Assembly (NCBI GenBank): GCA_021324755.1
Contig: JAJPIL010000004.1
Location: 1-64,000, forward strand
Length of the DNA: 64,000 nucleotides
Reading direction: 5' to 3'
Source of the DNA: Pseudomonadota bacterium
GTDB lineage: Bacteria; Desulfobacterota; Binatia; Binatales; Binataceae
Shown here: piece after piece, positions 36,586 through 42,372 of the stretch
Layout of the letters: each line of letters starts with the position of its first letter
Position numbering within the stretch: the stretch's first letter is position 1
The notes under the pieces: model-generated
Databases searched by the model: none
What the model saw: the letters and a program-made list of their open reading frames with translations, nothing else
Told to the model about the DNA's origin: nothing
Program-made: the position numbers and the translations under genes

Positions 36586-37488
36586 TTATGTCGCAGCACC
36601 TGCGCCGGTATGAACCGGACGCAACTGTCGATAGAGCGCAGCCCCGGCCAGCGAGCCGACTGGACCGCCGACGAGGGAGCCCACCACCGAGCCAAAAATC
36701 CAACTCAGGCTTACGCCGACCGAGAATGCTCCGCACTGGAGTAAAATCGCCGGCAACGTGAGAGCCACGAACACCCCGCCCGCCATCAGGCCGAGCACGA
36801 CGGGACGCCTCGGCGCTTTGATACCGACGATCGCGGAGGCGATCAGAAGCGGAAGTAGCGAATAAAGGCTCCCAAGCAAAAAGTACTGGGTCTGGCTTTG
36901 CACGCCCGCGAAAAGGTGGCGCATGGCTGGGCTCATCTTGCAGTAATCGAGCGCCTGGCCGATCGAGCAAGACCCGGTCAACGCGAGCGAAAGCCCCATC
37001 GCCGCGAGTCCCGCGATACCAACCCAGCGCGCGGCGATGCCGTAGCGGGCCTCACTATCGCCGCGCATCACCAAAAGCACCGCGACGGCATACAACGCTG
37101 CCCACGCCGCGCCCATGCTCAACAATACCTGCGGCGAGAAGGCCGAGAGGTCGCTTTTCTGTCCGAGCACCCAGACCGAGGCGACCGAAAACACCACGCC
37201 CAGCGTCACGCTCACCAGGGCCGACTTGCCCACTCGGGCGCTTTCGGCATTCGCCTGCTCACGTTCGAGTTCTCGCAGAACTCGCGCACGAGTCGTTTGC
37301 CAAAGTTTGGCGGGCACTTCCTCTTCGGTAAGCGCACCCAAGGCGCGCCAGGTGAGCCTCATCTCCTGCCACGCCTGCCGGCAAGTCGCGCAGCCGCGCA
37401 GATGAGCTTGGAGTTCGGCCGGCGTGTGCAGGTTGCCTTCGGCCAAAGCATTGGTGAGTTCGAACTGAGTCTGTTCGCACCTATTCAT
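36586..37488 (-). CDS. Membrane anti-sigma factor, zinc-finger type
   Basis: 300 residues from the ATG at 37488. The N-terminal anti-sigma zinc finger has the H-x3-C-x2-C core (HLRGCATC) that binds the ECF sigma factor in the cytoplasm. About seven hydrophobic segments follow (for example LVSVTLGVVFSVASVWVL; YFLLGSLYSLLPLLIASAIV), so sensing is probably at the membrane. The start overlaps the sigma gene, the usual sigma/anti-sigma coupling. It contains extra cysteines in the membrane part (SCSIGQALDYC), which could react with thiophilic metals. That is an inference from the adjacent mercury genes. Confidence 0.85.
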   Translation of the reverse strand: MNRCEQTQFELTNALAEGNLHTPAELQAHLRGCATCRQAWQEMRLTWRALGALTEEEVPAKLWQTTRARVLRELEREQANAESARVGKSALVSVTLGVVFSVASVWVLGQKSDLSAFSPQVLLSMGAAWAALYAVAVLLVMRGDSEARYGIAARWVGIAGLAAMGLSLALTGSCSIGQALDYCKMSPAMRHLFAGVQSQTQYFLLGSLYSLLPLLIASAIVGIKAPRRPVVLGLMAGGVFVALTLPAILLQCGAFSVGVSLSWIFGSVVGSLVGGPVGSLAGAALYRQLRPVHTGAGAAT

Positions 37489-38077
37489 TGCCCGATTCAC
37501 CTACAGCTCTGTCCCGTGCGCGCAGAGCAGCGCGCAGTTGCGCCAGCGCGCGGAATAGCCGCACCTTAACCGCGCCTTCGGAAATCCCAAGCGCCGAGGC
37601 GATCTCACGCGCAGTGAGTCCTTGATATCGGCTGAGCAGTAGCACGTCGCGCAGTCCTTGCGGCAACTGCGCAATCGCCGCTTCGATCGCCTTGCTCGTC
37701 TCGCGCGCCTCGCTTAAGGATTCCGGATCGCCGCTTGCGGTTCGACTGGTCGCCGGGATAGCTTCGATGGTTTCCTCGTCCATAGGCGTTCGTCGCCTGT
37801 GTTCGGCTCGGTTACGTTCGTCCCTGAGCAGGTTGGCAGCGATGGTGAACAGGAAAGCTTTGAACGTGCCAACCCTGTAGTTTTTTCGCGCCTGATGAAG
37901 ATGGAGGAGGGTGGCCTGAAAAAGGTCTTCTGCCGTCGCACGATCGCCACACGCGCGGAGCAGGAAGTTGAAGAGCCTTGCGCCATACCGCTTGTATAAT
38001 TCATCGAAAGCGCCGGCGTCCCCGTCCGCATAAGCGAGCATCAAATCCTCATCGCTCCGCGTGCTCCCTCCGCTCAT
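37481..38077 (-). CDS. ECF RNA polymerase sigma factor
   Basis: 198 residues from the ATG at 38077 (AAGGG just upstream; the frame extends further, but without sigma similarity). Region 2 reads LMLAYADGDAGAFDELYKRYGARLFN and YRVGTFKAFLFTIAANLLRDE. Region 4 contains the helix-turn-helix GLTAREIASALGISEGAVKVRLFRAL. It is a group 4 sigma factor. It diverges from the mercury genes, with an inverted GTAAC pair between them. It is the only regulator visible at the mercury locus, so it probably controls that locus or itself. Confidence 0.93.
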   Translation of the reverse strand: MSGGSTRSDEDLMLAYADGDAGAFDELYKRYGARLFNFLLRACGDRATAEDLFQATLLHLHQARKNYRVGTFKAFLFTIAANLLRDERNRAEHRRRTPMDEETIEAIPATSRTASGDPESLSEARETSKAIEAAIAQLPQGLRDVLLLSRYQGLTAREIASALGISEGAVKVRLFRALAQLRAALRARDRAVGESGNE

Positions 38078-38104
38078 GCATCCCTTATAACGGACATCGG
38101 CCGA

Positions 38105-38137
38105 AAAAGTTACTTCGATTGGCGGCTCGTAACTTTT
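38105..38137. promoter_or_regulatory. Inverted GTAACTTTT pair, candidate divergent ECF promoter
   Basis: AAAAGTTAC (38105-38113) and GTAACTTTT (38129-38137) form a perfect 9-bp inverted repeat between the sigma gene and the plus-strand genes. On the minus strand GTAAC is followed 16 nt later by CGTT, the spacing of ECF -35/-10 boxes. That -10 lies only about 14 nt before the sigma start codon, so the transcript would be almost leaderless. Confidence 0.4.
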
Positions 38138-38155
38138 CCGTCGAACTCCAGTTCC

Positions 38156-38473
38156 ATGAAGCGAATGCGGACAAGAAACGTGATAGCTGCGCGCTCCGAG
38201 AGTGCCAAAGTAGCCCAGAATGAGCACGGGCGGACCGGCCGACGTAGCACAACAACTTTACCCGCACAAGACACATTTGCGCCGCCCAGGCGATTTCCTT
38301 TGGCCGCCACGAGGCCAGCGCTTCCGCCCAAGATTCGAGACGAAATTATCGAATACTATGCGTGGCTTTTCTGCCAGGGCGGATTTCGCAACCTCAGCAT
38401 GACCTTCGAACAGTTCCTCACGACGATCGCGGTCACCCAACCGGCGGCACTCTGTTCGGACCACGACGGCTGA
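38156..38473 (+). CDS. Putative 105-residue protein upstream of merT
   Basis: The C-terminal part (PPKIRDEIIEYYAWLFCQGG, FRNLSMTFEQFLTTIAV) reads like real protein, and the gene lies between the ECF promoter region and merT on the same strand. The N-terminal 50 residues are basic and low in complexity, so the true start may be later. No family was recognised. It could be a small regulator or metal-linked protein. Confidence 0.4.
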   Translation: MKRMRTRNVIAARSESAKVAQNEHGRTGRRSTTTLPAQDTFAPPRRFPLAATRPALPPKIRDEIIEYYAWLFCQGGFRNLSMTFEQFLTTIAVTQPAALCSDHDG

Positions 38474-38592
38474 GCACCAGCCGAGCAACGGCGCACCTGT
38501 AACCTTTGGTTTCCTGTTCCGTTCTAAGGGATGGATTCACACTTCGACAGTCGAAATACAGAAGTCGCAAGCACAGGCGAGGAGAACTCAAC

Positions 38593-39201
38593 ATGAAGTC
38601 CGAAAAGCTTGAATGGTTGTCGGTCATACTTGCGTCGGCGTGCTGCGTGCTGCCGCTGGCAGCCGCGCTCCTGGGTTTGGGTAGCATCGGCCTTGGTTCA
38701 ATCATGGGCGGATTGGGAATCTACTTCGACCTGGGCGGGCTTGTCATGTTGGCGGTGGCCTGGTTCTACTTCTTGCGCGAAAGGCGCAGAGCCTACGCCC
38801 TTGACTCGAGTATCCGCGGTGAGCGCCGGACGATGGCTGCGCTTTGGATTGCAACCGTGCTGGTGGTGATCTTCGCCGGCTCAGGGCTGGCGCCGGCGAT
38901 CATGAGGATTTTCACATCTCATACCATGATCGCCCAAAGCTCACAGGCCGGCGCGAGGCTGGATGGATCGAGCAATCCGGCCGGATATCTACGCAAAGTG
39001 CTGGCGGTCAAGGGCATGGACTGCGCCGCGTGCATTCCCGAAATCAAGAACAGACTGGCTAAGGTACAAGGTGTCCGTTCCGTCGACGTGAGCCTTCGCG
39101 ACCAGACCGTCATCGTCGAATACAACCCGTCCCAAGCGTCTGCGGAGCAACTGGTCAAGGCGGTTAAAGCGGTGGGATACGACGCTCGCGTCGCAAACTG
39201 A
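38593..39201 (+). CDS. merT: Mercuric ion transporter MerT fused to an HMA domain
   Basis: 202 residues. The N-terminal membrane part starts with the MerT cysteine pair in the first helix (LASACCVLPLAAALLGLG), then two further membrane segments. The last about 70 residues form a heavy-metal-associated domain with CxxC (VKGMDCAACIPEIKNRL). This is the MerTP-type fusion that passes Hg(II) from the membrane to a cytoplasmic HMA domain and on to MerA. The ATG at 38593 follows GGCGAGGAG. It is the first clear gene of the merTAPB order. Confidence 0.9.
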   Translation: MKSEKLEWLSVILASACCVLPLAAALLGLGSIGLGSIMGGLGIYFDLGGLVMLAVAWFYFLRERRRAYALDSSIRGERRTMAALWIATVLVVIFAGSGLAPAIMRIFTSHTMIAQSSQAGARLDGSSNPAGYLRKVLAVKGMDCAACIPEIKNRLAKVQGVRSVDVSLRDQTVIVEYNPSQASAEQLVKAVKAVGYDARVAN

Positions 39202-39220: not shown

Positions 39221-40642
39221 ATGTTGTTCAACAAAACCACCAAAACCGACTTCGATCTATTCGTGTTGGGCGGTGGCTCGGCGGCATTTGCCGCGGCGAT
39301 ACGCGCGGCCGAGCTTGGCGCACGTGTTGGCGTCGCCGAGGAAGGTGTCATCGGCGGCACCTGCGTCAATCGCGGATGCGTGCCGAGCAAAAACCTGCTC
39401 CACGCCGCCGAGCGTTATCACGACTATCTCAGGAACGGATTTCCCGGCCTGCCGCGTGGCACCGAAGAGGCGAACTTCGCCGAAGTGATCGCTCAGAAGG
39501 ACGACCTCGTCCAGGGTTTGCGCAAGGCCAAGTACTGGGACATCCTGGAAGCCTTTCCGCAGATCAAATTCCTGCCCCACCGCGCGGCTTTCATCTCTCC
39601 CCACGAAGTCACCGTGGGCGATCAGAAAGTCACCGCCGAGCATTTCATTGTCGCGACCGGCGCAACACCTGCACGACTCTCCGTTCCGGGAATCGAAAGG
39701 ACGCCTTACCTCACGTATAAGGAAGCGCTCGACCTCAATCAGCTTCCCAAGTCGCTGATTGTCATCGGCGGCGGACCGATCGGTCTGGAACTTGGTCAGG
39801 TCTATGCGCGCTTCGGCAGCAAAGTCACAATCCTAGAAGCCTTGCCGCGCATCGCACCCCTCGAGGACGAAGACGTTTCTCAGGCGCTCGAGGCCTACCT
39901 GACAGAAGAAGGGATTCAAATCCTCACTGCGGTCAAGGTCACGCAGGTTCAGCCAGTCGAGGGCGGTGTGCGGGTCGAAGCTCTAATTGACGGCAGGTCT
40001 GCGGACTTCTTCGGCGAGCGGCTGCTCGTGGCCACAGGCCTCAAGCCAAACACTGGCGAGCTCGGGCTGGAGAAGGCCGGCGTCGAGCGCGACAGACGCG
40101 GCGCGATCGTCGTGGACGACTACCTTCGGACGAGCGCCAAAAATATCTGGGCCGCGGGTGATGTCACCGGCCAGATCATGCTGGTTACGGTGTCGGCAAT
40201 GGAGGGCGGAATCGCGGCGGAGAACGCACTCGCCAACGCGCGCAAACGTGTCGACCTGTCGCACGTGCCGCACGCGATCTTTACCTCACCGCAGGTCGCC
40301 TCGGTGGGCCTTCGCGAGCGCGACGCAGGTGCGAACGGGCGCAAAATTCTGACGGCGAAGCTTCCCTTCGAGCATGTTCCCAAGGCCGCTGCGATTCGTG
40401 ACACTCGCGGCCTACTAAAGCTCGTGGTTGACGCGCGCAGCTACCGTGTCCTGGGTGCGCACCTGGTCTCCGACGAGGCCGCCGATTTGATCCATATCGG
40501 CGTGCTCGCGGTCCAGCAGGGTCTCACGGTGGGCGACCTCCTGCGCACCACTTTCGTCTATCCAACGCTGGCGGAGGCGTTTAAGATCGCGGCGCTCTCC
40601 TTCAAGAAAGACGTTACCAAACTTAGCTGCTGCGCTACGTAA
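39221..40642 (+). CDS. merA: Mercuric reductase
   Basis: 473-residue FAD-dependent reductase that reduces Hg(II) to Hg(0) with NADPH. The redox disulfide is GGTCVNRGCVPSK (C48 and C53). The FAD site starts LFVLGGGSAAFAAAIRA and the NADPH site is VIGGGPIGLELGQVYARFG. The C-terminus keeps the MerA-specific mercury-binding vicinal cysteines (KLSCCAT, C470-C471), which separates it from dihydrolipoamide dehydrogenase. The N-terminal HMA domain of many MerA proteins is missing, but HMA domains occur on the adjacent merT and merP products. Confidence 0.95.
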   Translation: MLFNKTTKTDFDLFVLGGGSAAFAAAIRAAELGARVGVAEEGVIGGTCVNRGCVPSKNLLHAAERYHDYLRNGFPGLPRGTEEANFAEVIAQKDDLVQGLRKAKYWDILEAFPQIKFLPHRAAFISPHEVTVGDQKVTAEHFIVATGATPARLSVPGIERTPYLTYKEALDLNQLPKSLIVIGGGPIGLELGQVYARFGSKVTILEALPRIAPLEDEDVSQALEAYLTEEGIQILTAVKVTQVQPVEGGVRVEALIDGRSADFFGERLLVATGLKPNTGELGLEKAGVERDRRGAIVVDDYLRTSAKNIWAAGDVTGQIMLVTVSAMEGGIAAENALANARKRVDLSHVPHAIFTSPQVASVGLRERDAGANGRKILTAKLPFEHVPKAAAIRDTRGLLKLVVDARSYRVLGAHLVSDEAADLIHIGVLAVQQGLTVGDLLRTTFVYPTLAEAFKIAALSFKKDVTKLSCCAT

Positions 40643-40784: not shown

Positions 40785-41111
40785 ATGAAGAAACGGCTGA
40801 TAAACAGATCGTTGGCGATACTAGGAGTGGGCGTGCTTGCGCTCACGGGAGTTCAAAGCGCGGCTTTCGCGGGCGAGAAGACCTGCCCACTGCGAATCAA
40901 AGGGATGCACTGCGAAATGTGTCCCGGCAAGGTTGAAGCAGCGCTCAAGTCGGTGCCGGGCGTCAAGAGCGCCAAGGTTGATTACAAATCCGCAACTGCG
41001 AACGTAGTCGTCGACGACTCGGTCAAACCCGCCCAACTGATAAGTGCGGTCGAGAAAGCCGGGTTCCACGCCGAGCCGCTTAAGCCAGGGGCGACTTCAA
41101 AATCGCAGTAG
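40785..41111 (+). CDS. merP: Periplasmic mercury-binding protein MerP-like
   Basis: 108 residues from the ATG at 40785, preceded by AAGGAGG. A signal peptide (SLAILGVGVLALTGVQSAAFA) precedes a single HMA domain with the metal motif GMHCEMC (CxxC). It should bind Hg(II) in the periplasm and hand it to MerT. The 142-bp gap after merA contains no other gene; the frame is open upstream, but the signal peptide fixes the start. Confidence 0.9.
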   Translation: MKKRLINRSLAILGVGVLALTGVQSAAFAGEKTCPLRIKGMHCEMCPGKVEAALKSVPGVKSAKVDYKSATANVVVDDSVKPAQLISAVEKAGFHAEPLKPGATSKSQ

Positions 41112-41144: not shown

Positions 41145-42056
41145 ATGAAACCACGCAGTCATCGCTTGACCGTCCAGGAAAGACGCGTCGTCGAGATTCT
41201 TTACGACGATTGGCGCGACCTCTTGCGCTGCACTACTATCGACCAAGCGATGGAGCGCGCGGGAGTGCCTTTCTCTCAAGAAAGCCGGTTGCGCATCGGC
41301 GATTTTCTGCGGCACGATCCAGCAGCTGCGAAACTGATGCGCTGGCACCTTGCGGCCTATGGGCTCACCAACGATGAGAAGCGCTTCGCGCGCTTAATCC
41401 TGCGCGCCGCGCCGTTTCCTGGATTAATCGCGGATCCACACAACCTTGCTCCGCCCAGTGCAGGCTGGTCTTCTGCCGCTATTTCGCAGGCGCTCGAGAC
41501 TCTCGAATGGATGGGATTTCTTAGGCGAAGCTTGGGAGGCTACGAGCTCGCACCCGATTATGCCCGCTTTCTTGATGGAATCGGGTTTTACTTTCACGAA
41601 GTTGTCCTTCCAGACCGTAGCGAACGTTTCAACAGGAATTGCGCAACCGATTTCTTCATCATGGCTCACCGTCCAACTCGGGAACGCGCACTGGCTCAAA
41701 TCAAGGCTGGGAGCCTTCCGGAAACTGCCGGGGCGGGTATGAGCCAGAAGATGACCGATGCAATTCGTGCGGTGTCCCGCCCTGTGAATTCAGCACTTGC
41801 CAAGATCGCCGATTACACGGGCGAGCGCGCGATCCTAAATGACGCTTGCGCATGGACGCACGAGCTCGTCCGCATCGTGATGGACAGCGGCAAAATCGCC
41901 GAGGTCACGCCGGACAGCGCTTGGTATCTGCGTGGTGGCGGCTGAGGTGTAAACCTTCTCTTCCGGTCGGAAGAGGCGGCGCAATCGTGGCTGATGCGGT
42001 ATCCAGGTGTTCGCGTAGTTGAGAGCGGTACGGTCAAACAGGTTTTTGCGAGCTGA
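41145..42056 (+). CDS. merB: MerB-like organomercurial lyase, probable selenoprotein (in-frame TGA at 41943-41945)
   Basis: The conventional frame stops at TGA 41943 after 266 codons, but it continues in phase for 36 codons (GVNLLFRSEEAAQSWLMRYP...) to the TGA at 42054. The full product would be 303 residues with selenocysteine at 267. The N-terminal half contains a winged-helix-like segment. NCATDFFIMA (C166, D169) matches the MerB C96-A-L-D99 motif. DACAWTHELVRI (C235) corresponds to MerB C117, and U267-GVNLLFRS lines up with the C159/C160-HVHFFAS segment, so U replaces the third active-site cysteine. A SECIS-like hairpin follows the TGA at the right distance. MerB cleaves carbon-mercury bonds, which fits the merT-A-P context. 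The alternative is a nonsense mutation in an old merB. Confidence 0.72.
41958..41975 (+). promoter_or_regulatory. Candidate bacterial SECIS hairpin
   Basis: CTCTTCC (41958-41964) pairs perfectly with GGAAGAG (41969-41975) around a GGTC loop. The loop begins 19 nt after the TGA at 41943-41945. Bacterial SECIS elements lie just downstream of UGA with a short stem and a G among the first loop bases, and the E. coli fdhF element also has GGUC in its loop. The stem lies inside the coding frame. Confidence 0.62.
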
Positions 42057-42158: not shown

Positions 42159-42372
42159 GGTCGTGGCAGGCGGCCAGTTCGCCTACTCGAGCAAGTGCGC
42201 GCTAATTACACAATCGTGATGCACGAGGTTTCACTCTCGATCGGATCCGCCGATACCCTCAACGCACCTATCTCGCGGCTTTTGCGGCACTGCGCGAAAT
42301 AGCGCGGCGATTGACGAGGCGCTAGGCGCGCTCAAAACGCGGTACGGCAACGTGCTCGCCCGCGACTTGTGA
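42159..42372 (+). pseudogene. Fragment of a DUF692 (MNIO) iron oxidase gene, frameshifted
   Basis: One frame reads RPVRLLEQVRANYTIVMHEV followed by SLSIGSADTLN. This closely resembles the N-terminal 'VLE-x-VR-x-YP-x-x-LHGVSLSIGS' region of DUF692/multinuclear iron oxidases (MbnB-like). It then hits TAG at 42300-42302. Shifted frames continue as RYPQRTYLAAFAAL and AAIDEALGALKTRYGNVLARDL, ending at TGA 42370. So this is a decayed gene or two joined fragments. MNIO enzymes make metal-related peptide products, so decay next to mer genes may record a lost metal-handling cluster. Confidence 0.5.

Follow-up and report, generated by a model that had tools for sequence, protein, structure and literature searches.

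A MerB-fold gene with a predicted selenocysteine at the Cys159 position, beside merT, merA and merP: a putative organomercurial lyase

The stretch of DNA analysed here (the window: 64,000 nucleotides, positions 1 to 64,000 of contig JAJPIL010000004.1, from a bacterium of the Binatia) contains, at the end of a run of mercury-resistance genes, a gene that we read as encoding a 303-residue selenoprotein of the MerB fold, a putative organomercurial lyase. We put the probability of this reading at about 0.78. Sequence comparison makes it very likely that the UGA at codon 267 is decoded as selenocysteine (Sec), an insertion that is itself predicted, and given a selenoprotein the function is probably that of an organomercurial lyase, with both activity and substrate predicted. 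The features of the gene and its neighbours are collected in Table 1.

Table 1. Positions in the window of the Sec-containing gene, its key codons and hairpin, and the adjoining mer genes
Feature	Position	Strand	Details and basis
MerT-HMA fusion, probable mercuric transport	38593..39201	+	HMA 55 bits, over cut-off
merA, mercury(II) reductase	39221..40642	+	TIGR02053 520 bits, over cut-off 454
merP-like HMA protein	40785..41111	+	Pfam HMA 66 bits, over cut-off; TIGR02052 50 bits, below 92.6
MerB-domain gene, predicted to contain Sec	41145..42056	+	303 residues, Sec at 267, stop TGA 42054-42056
Cys166 codon, at MerB Cys96	41640..41642	+	alignment columns
Asp169 codon, at MerB Asp99	41649..41651	+	alignment columns
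Cys235 codon, at MerB Cys117	41847..41849	+	5c17 profile alignment; alignment columns
In-frame TGA, predicted Sec267, MerB Cys159 position	41943..41945	+	same codon in L020; 5c17 profile alignment; alignment columns
SECIS-like hairpin CTCTTCC-GGTC-GGAAGAG	41958..41975	+	stem begins 12 nt after TGA; identical in L020

An in-frame TGA within a constrained reading frame

The open reading frame at 41145-41945, which starts 33 nt 3' of the merP stop, comprises 266 codons and a TGA, and the same frame stays open for a further 36 codons, as a preliminary description of the window, made from the letters alone, had claimed. A full-length orthologue, L020 (JAJPKA010000017.1, deposited as 'Proteobacteria bacterium isolate Centralia_MAG_59'), is present in a genome of another genus (G004) and is 76% identical to the window gene, 204 of 266 residues being identical before the TGA and 27 of 36 after it. 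Homologues that end naturally at residue 266 had been named as a point against selenocysteine; L020 also has TGA at codon 267, continues past it and terminates by TAA at codon 304. Between the two genes dN is 0.136 and dS 0.754 after the TGA, a ratio of about 0.18 that indicates purifying selection, and constraint is similar before it (dN 0.122, dS 0.529), with a single difference in the 44 nt around the TGA and the hairpin. The in-frame UGA is thus kept in a homologue and the frame downstream of it is constrained, the pattern of a selenoprotein gene.

The search for orthologues covered 57 relatives, 148 genomes of the class and 395 of the phylum, the window's own genome being counted each time, and across these sets the complete gene is found in two genomes only, its own and G004. 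Any match at all was obtained in three of the 148 class genomes, own genome included, and one of these, G015, retains just a fragment of some 46 residues (L019/L021) 3' of the apparent end of merA, so the gene seems to have been lost there; a search of plasmids and viral contigs found no relative. The G015 remnant beside merA, and the decay in the window of a gene that lies downstream in G004, could be taken to favour an origin of the in-frame TGA in pseudogene decay or faulty assembly. However, the same TGA is present in the other genus's assembly, in a frame otherwise intact and constrained, and as it is common to different genera and assemblies both an assembly error and a fresh pseudogene are unlikely; we give this explanation hardly any weight.

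MerB fold and catalytic residues

The Pfam MerB family matches the read-through protein at residues 221-289 (E 1.7e-4, 22 bits, under the cut-off of 27). Without the extension, the 266-aa frame draws no Pfam match at E up to 1, and the 36 residues by themselves match only an unrelated family (E 0.13). The NCBIfam models NF009710 and NF033555 give the window protein 16.4 and 14.8 bits against cut-offs of 193 and 200. Scoring below the curated Pfam and NCBIfam cut-offs, the protein falls outside the NCBIfam MerB equivalogs. Searching the window's own genome with Pfam MerB gave no match at E 0.001 and missed the window gene too, which marks the domain as divergent and means that a second divergent MerB may exist in this genome.

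A two-sequence profile nevertheless finds MerB2 (5c17, E 0.0047), with U267 aligned to the GGTC-motif Cys, and alignment to a canonical MerB (L057) equates C166, D169, C235 and U267 with positions 96, 99, 117 and 159. The alignments therefore bear out the first three assignments of the preliminary description. It had put the TGA at Cys159/Cys160; the site is confirmed and the register is now fixed at Cys159, not 160, as in the profile of the two-Sec relatives described below the second Sec column falls on Cys159 of the C160S mutant. The catalytic set of the window protein is accordingly C166, D169 and a Sec replacing Cys159. In MerB Cys96, Asp99 and Cys159 are given as essential (passages of PMC8261052), and the two cysteines are treated as ligands of Hg, with Asp99 relaying a proton in mercury removal (passages of PMC4525700). 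The Cys96 and Cys117 equivalents are 69 residues apart here and 21 apart in MerB numbering, an insert of about 48 residues.

The AlphaFold2 model of the window protein has a mean pLDDT of 64.7, with 89 residues under 50, and is weak outside the core, but 10-residue blocks of 221-300 reach pLDDT 72-96. Residues 148-303 of the model superpose on MerB 80-195 (3f0o_B) with Z 12.3 over 106 residues at 2.2 Å, and the best eleven Foldseek matches are all MerB; NosL is the next fold, at Z 6.4 versus 12.3. The 36-residue extension, whose similarity to homologues had been proposed as a check, is conserved and forms part of this MerB fold. The N-terminal region 64-150 resembles winged helices only weakly (Z about 5, low confidence).

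MerB relatives with two selenocysteines

Pfam MerB gave 33 matches in 32 of the 148 class genomes, 15 of them with TGA, and 59 matches in 49 genomes, 42 with TGA, across the 395 phylum genomes, a sample out of a larger group. All 57 TGA-bearing matches were read, and TGA-free ones where a locus was returned. In these 57 further genes every one of the 105 TGAs in the Pfam-matched stretch, to which the claim is limited since reading ended at any TGA or other stop outside it, lies at the Cys96 or the Cys159 position. A first set of 29 genes, taken with the window gene and L020, has 54 TGAs, all in these two columns, and in the remaining 28 genes the figure is 53 of 53; confinement to two catalytic positions excludes chance placing.

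A Sec-type TGA occurs at both positions in 48 of the 57 genes (L049, L084 and L050 among them), and these two-Sec genes divide by position 99 into 36 with Glu and 12 with Asp. Written as residues 96/99/159, with counts for the first set plus the remaining genes, the patterns are UEU 22+14, UDU 1+11, CDU 6 (including the window gene and L020) and CEU 2+1; L144 and L146 have the first TGA only, the frame being apparently lost before the Cys159 site. Cys and Sec interchange: in an alignment of 59 genes, from which L072 was dropped for an internal TAA, there are 23 two-Sec, eight one-Sec and 28 Cys-only genes, and all 28 of these TGA-free genes have Cys at both sites, providing the Cys-bearing homologues that the preliminary description had suggested looking for.

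The two-Sec protein L049 gives a model of pLDDT 93.9, of which 191 residues can be superposed on MerB2 (Z 18.0, 3.4 Å), and a profile of 32 relatives of the two-Sec, one-Sec and Cys types recovers MerB2 with E 1.3e-29 and MerB with E 2.6e-23. All nine relatives compared with NCBIfam (six two-Sec, one one-Sec, two Cys-only) score below its cut-offs, the six two-Sec proteins reaching at most 60 bits against cut-offs of 140-200. A tree of the 59 MerB domains (103 columns, a quick method, many open forks) groups 22 of the 23 two-Sec genes with two one-Sec genes, leaves L050 apart and places the window gene and L020 on a long branch without a fixed position. Residues 3-92 of L049 form a winged helix that matches LexA DNA-binding domains (Z 8.6), a likeness that may reflect a common fold only. 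L127 (G490) belongs to a MerB-like group of about 300 aa with an ECPVE motif and carries Sec where MerB has Cys159, and Ala at 117; the other members of that group, L067, L071, L074 and L076, all have Cys.

The downstream hairpin and the selenocysteine machinery

Bacterial SECIS elements lie directly 3' of the UGA (passages of PMC4513850). The hairpin claimed for the window gene is exact: 41958-41964 pair with 41969-41975 in a perfect 7-bp stem, and the GGUC loop occupies 41965-41968, after 19 nt. A SECIS-like element is thus present and conserved at the window gene, but its folding energy is unremarkable on shuffling (z only about -1, at -1.29 and -1.05), so that of the suggested RNA fold the hairpin stands and an unusual stability does not. 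Compared with other positions in the same gene, the 42 nt 3' of a TGA tend to have a low folding energy (the fraction of codons with a value as low averages 0.25 over 54 TGAs and is under 0.1 for 15 of them; L020 0.18), and the rank is not low in four one-Sec genes (L061 0.35, L064 0.97, L065 0.69, L066 0.87). Since folding energy fails to single out the hairpin, we rely instead on codon invariance and covariation.

The hairpin of the second TGA, CTCTTCCGGTCGGAAGAG, is letter-identical in the window gene, L020 and 15 of the 23 two-Sec genes, and the protein identity between window/L020 and the two-Sec genes that share these 18 nt is about 20%. In the second SECIS of the two-Sec group (25 genes) the codons are TTC in 25/25, CGG in 24/24 Arg, TCG in 25/25 and GAA in 24/25, and mean codon diversity is 0.21 at seven hairpin or adjacent sites and 0.58 at 44 conserved sites elsewhere (p 0.0009; L061, L064, L065, L066, the window gene and L020 excluded). 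Among 30 distinct sequences 96.7% of the cells of the second stem are paired, falling to 48-62% if the stem is slid, and its outer pair is C-G in 19, U-A in six, U-G in four and other in one. Covariation is seen in seven cells changed on both sides, a count that none of 500 shuffles reaches, and these changes fall in only two pairs, a number reached by 101 of the 500. The first-TGA stem is nearly invariant (99.3% of cells paired), with no covariation and no significant reduction in codon diversity (p 0.13).

These data bear on the reading of TGA 267 as a true stop, with a functional 266-residue product and the extension a relic. UGA terminates 18 of the 31 window ORFs of at least 200 aa, the window gene included, and is therefore an ordinary stop here, and standard gene callers end the gene at codon 267. 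But the extension is constrained and MerB is recognised only when it is included, the hairpin codons are nearly invariant in distant relatives and 57 other genes have UGA at the position of a catalytic Cys, all of which makes a true stop highly improbable.

The machinery for decoding UGA as Sec, which the preliminary description had left to be sought elsewhere in the genome, is present, with selA at 601 bits, selB at 400 bits, selD at 381 bits and a tRNA-Sec with a UCA anticodon. SelD of this genome (L053) itself has an in-frame TGA and is probably a selenoprotein. Decoding of UGA as some other amino acid, through a code change or a suppressor, has next to nothing to recommend it, given that the 17 other long window ORFs ending in UGA, the absence of an in-frame stop from SelA and SelB of the same genome, and the presence of a SECIS and the full Sec machinery all argue against it. 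Over 80 genomes (G000 scored separately, G015 left out) SelB exceeds its cut-off in 46 of 49 with TGA-type MerB genes and in 25 of 31 without, a weak contrast, SelB being widespread in the phylum; the three TGA-type genomes with no SelB over the cut-off, G134, G156 and G257, are 94, 85 and 76% complete.

Gene neighbourhood and proposed function

The order merT-merA-merP followed by the Sec-type merB is the same in the window and in G004, linking the gene to merA in both. The MerT-HMA fusion, for which the family scan spanned 38506-39201 and the ORF is taken from the ATG at 38593, scores 71 bits with MerTP_fusion (below 180) and 16 bits with Pfam MerT (below 33). Divergent from merT, the minus strand at 36586-38227 has probable ECF sigma and anti-sigma genes, assigned by eye, and the pair, kept in G004 at 79% and 89% identity, may regulate the operon. 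On the other side, window positions 42165-42299 hold a decayed 45-residue remnant (67% identity, DUF692-like by eye) whose intact counterpart is at L020 7219-8220, downstream of the same gene run.

As the gene ends the merT-merA-merP run, a one-selenolate organomercurial lyase is the best reading. In the mechanism we propose, the mer run would be co-transcribed, and SelB with tRNA-Sec would decode UGA 267 as Sec under the direction of the hairpin that begins 12 nt 3' of it. The C166 thiolate and the U267 selenolate would then clamp R-Hg+, D169 would relay a proton to the leaving carbon, and MerA, encoded in the same run, would take over the Hg2+. Mercury binds selenium tighter than sulfur, and this tighter binding could favour capture and hinder release.

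A Sec-containing protein of the MerB fold might instead bind or pass on Hg2+, another soft metal or an organometal without being a lyase. Metal binding is possible for SaoL, the known one-Sec relative discussed below, and NosL, of similar fold and next after MerB in the structural comparison (Z 6.4), is a copper chaperone; the window protein has a large insert and an extension and scores below the MerB cut-offs; and its relatives are found outside mer operons. The window MerA, MerT and MerP gave no tblastn match at E 1e-5 in any of 19 other neighbourhoods (14 two-Sec, three one-Sec and two Cys-only; reaching at most 6 kb to either side, less where a contig ended), nor was any non-MerB family common to more than two loci among 20 neighbourhoods, G004 included. 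Yet every catalytic position is kept in the window protein, the Asp included, the gene lies 3' of merT-merA-merP in both genomes, and MerB stands well above NosL structurally (Z 12.3 vs 6.4), so that a non-lyase is unlikely, though less so than the other alternatives, and a lyase remains our reading.

Relation to known MerB proteins and selenoproteins

The window protein resembles MerB (PF03243; 3f0o, 3f2f; MerB2 5c17) in its C-terminal 155-residue fold, in the Cys96, Asp99 and Cys117 positions and in its linkage to merA. It differs in having Sec at Cys159 and Gly at 160, the insert of about 48 residues, a long N-terminal extension and a Pfam score under the family cut-off.

The preliminary description knew of no selenoprotein MerB, a view that has to be given up, as SaoL (NF040728) is listed as a MerB-like organometallic lyase selenoprotein with one Sec and the motif CU in a table of a 2026 review (PMC13188914). 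There it is credited to refs 61 and 63 (Haft and Gwadz 2023), the word 'MerB' being absent from the main text of ref 61, and an 'alkylmercury lyase MerB-like protein' appears among the selenoproteins in passages of a 2022 review (PMC9312934). In our phylum set the SaoL cut-off is passed in two of 395 genomes (L061/L105 and L066/L106, reading CAID...CU), and the model match stops at the codon before the TGA, which puts the Sec of SaoL also at Cys159. SaoL thus shares with the window protein one Sec at the Cys159 position and Cys and Asp at 96 and 99; the window protein, in contrast, has the motif GU (G266-U267) rather than CU and adjoins merT, merA and merP. It has no match to NF040728 (cut-off 140 bits) at E up to 1, and there is none in its own genome. 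The one-Sec MerB-like kind is therefore already known, and the window gene is a different subfamily.

The two-Sec relatives share with the window protein the MerB fold, Sec at Cys159 and, in 15 of 23, the same 18-nt hairpin, but have a second Sec at Cys96 and no mer genes in 14 neighbourhoods. Mercury transport selenoproteins of the MerT/MerP type are tabulated (parts of PMC13188914, PMC9312934 and PMC2398784) and, like the window gene product, would have Sec in a mercury-resistance protein, but they are transporters and not MerB; the window MerT and MerP have Cys, not Sec. Titles, abstracts and passages of the literature yielded no Sec-containing MerB within a mer operon, and a term search of PMC5029168 gave no match. 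Nor was a two-Sec MerB described in the partial texts covered, the Haft papers being represented by the table of the 2026 review, and within that scope the two-Sec MerB family looks undescribed.

Implications

As selenium binds mercury more tightly than sulfur does, a natural selenolate at the mercury site offers a ready test. A Sec-containing lyase would test why MerB uses Cys, and whether selenium speeds cleavage or slows release, and the CC, CU and UU variants provide a clean swap series for enzymology. We advance tentatively, at somewhat less than even odds, the wider proposal that in a large MerB family a selenolate pair, Sec at both the Cys96 and the Cys159 position, grips organomercury or another organometal, that selenium-based carbon-metal cleavage is widespread and unrecognised in the phylum, and that the one-Sec enzyme of the window is the mer-operon version. 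Ordinary gene calling would cut the two-Sec relatives at the first catalytic residue, and surveys of methylmercury breakdown based on annotated proteins could miss them. With the two-Sec relatives counted in, chemistry of the MerB type would be shared by many bacteria of the phylum.
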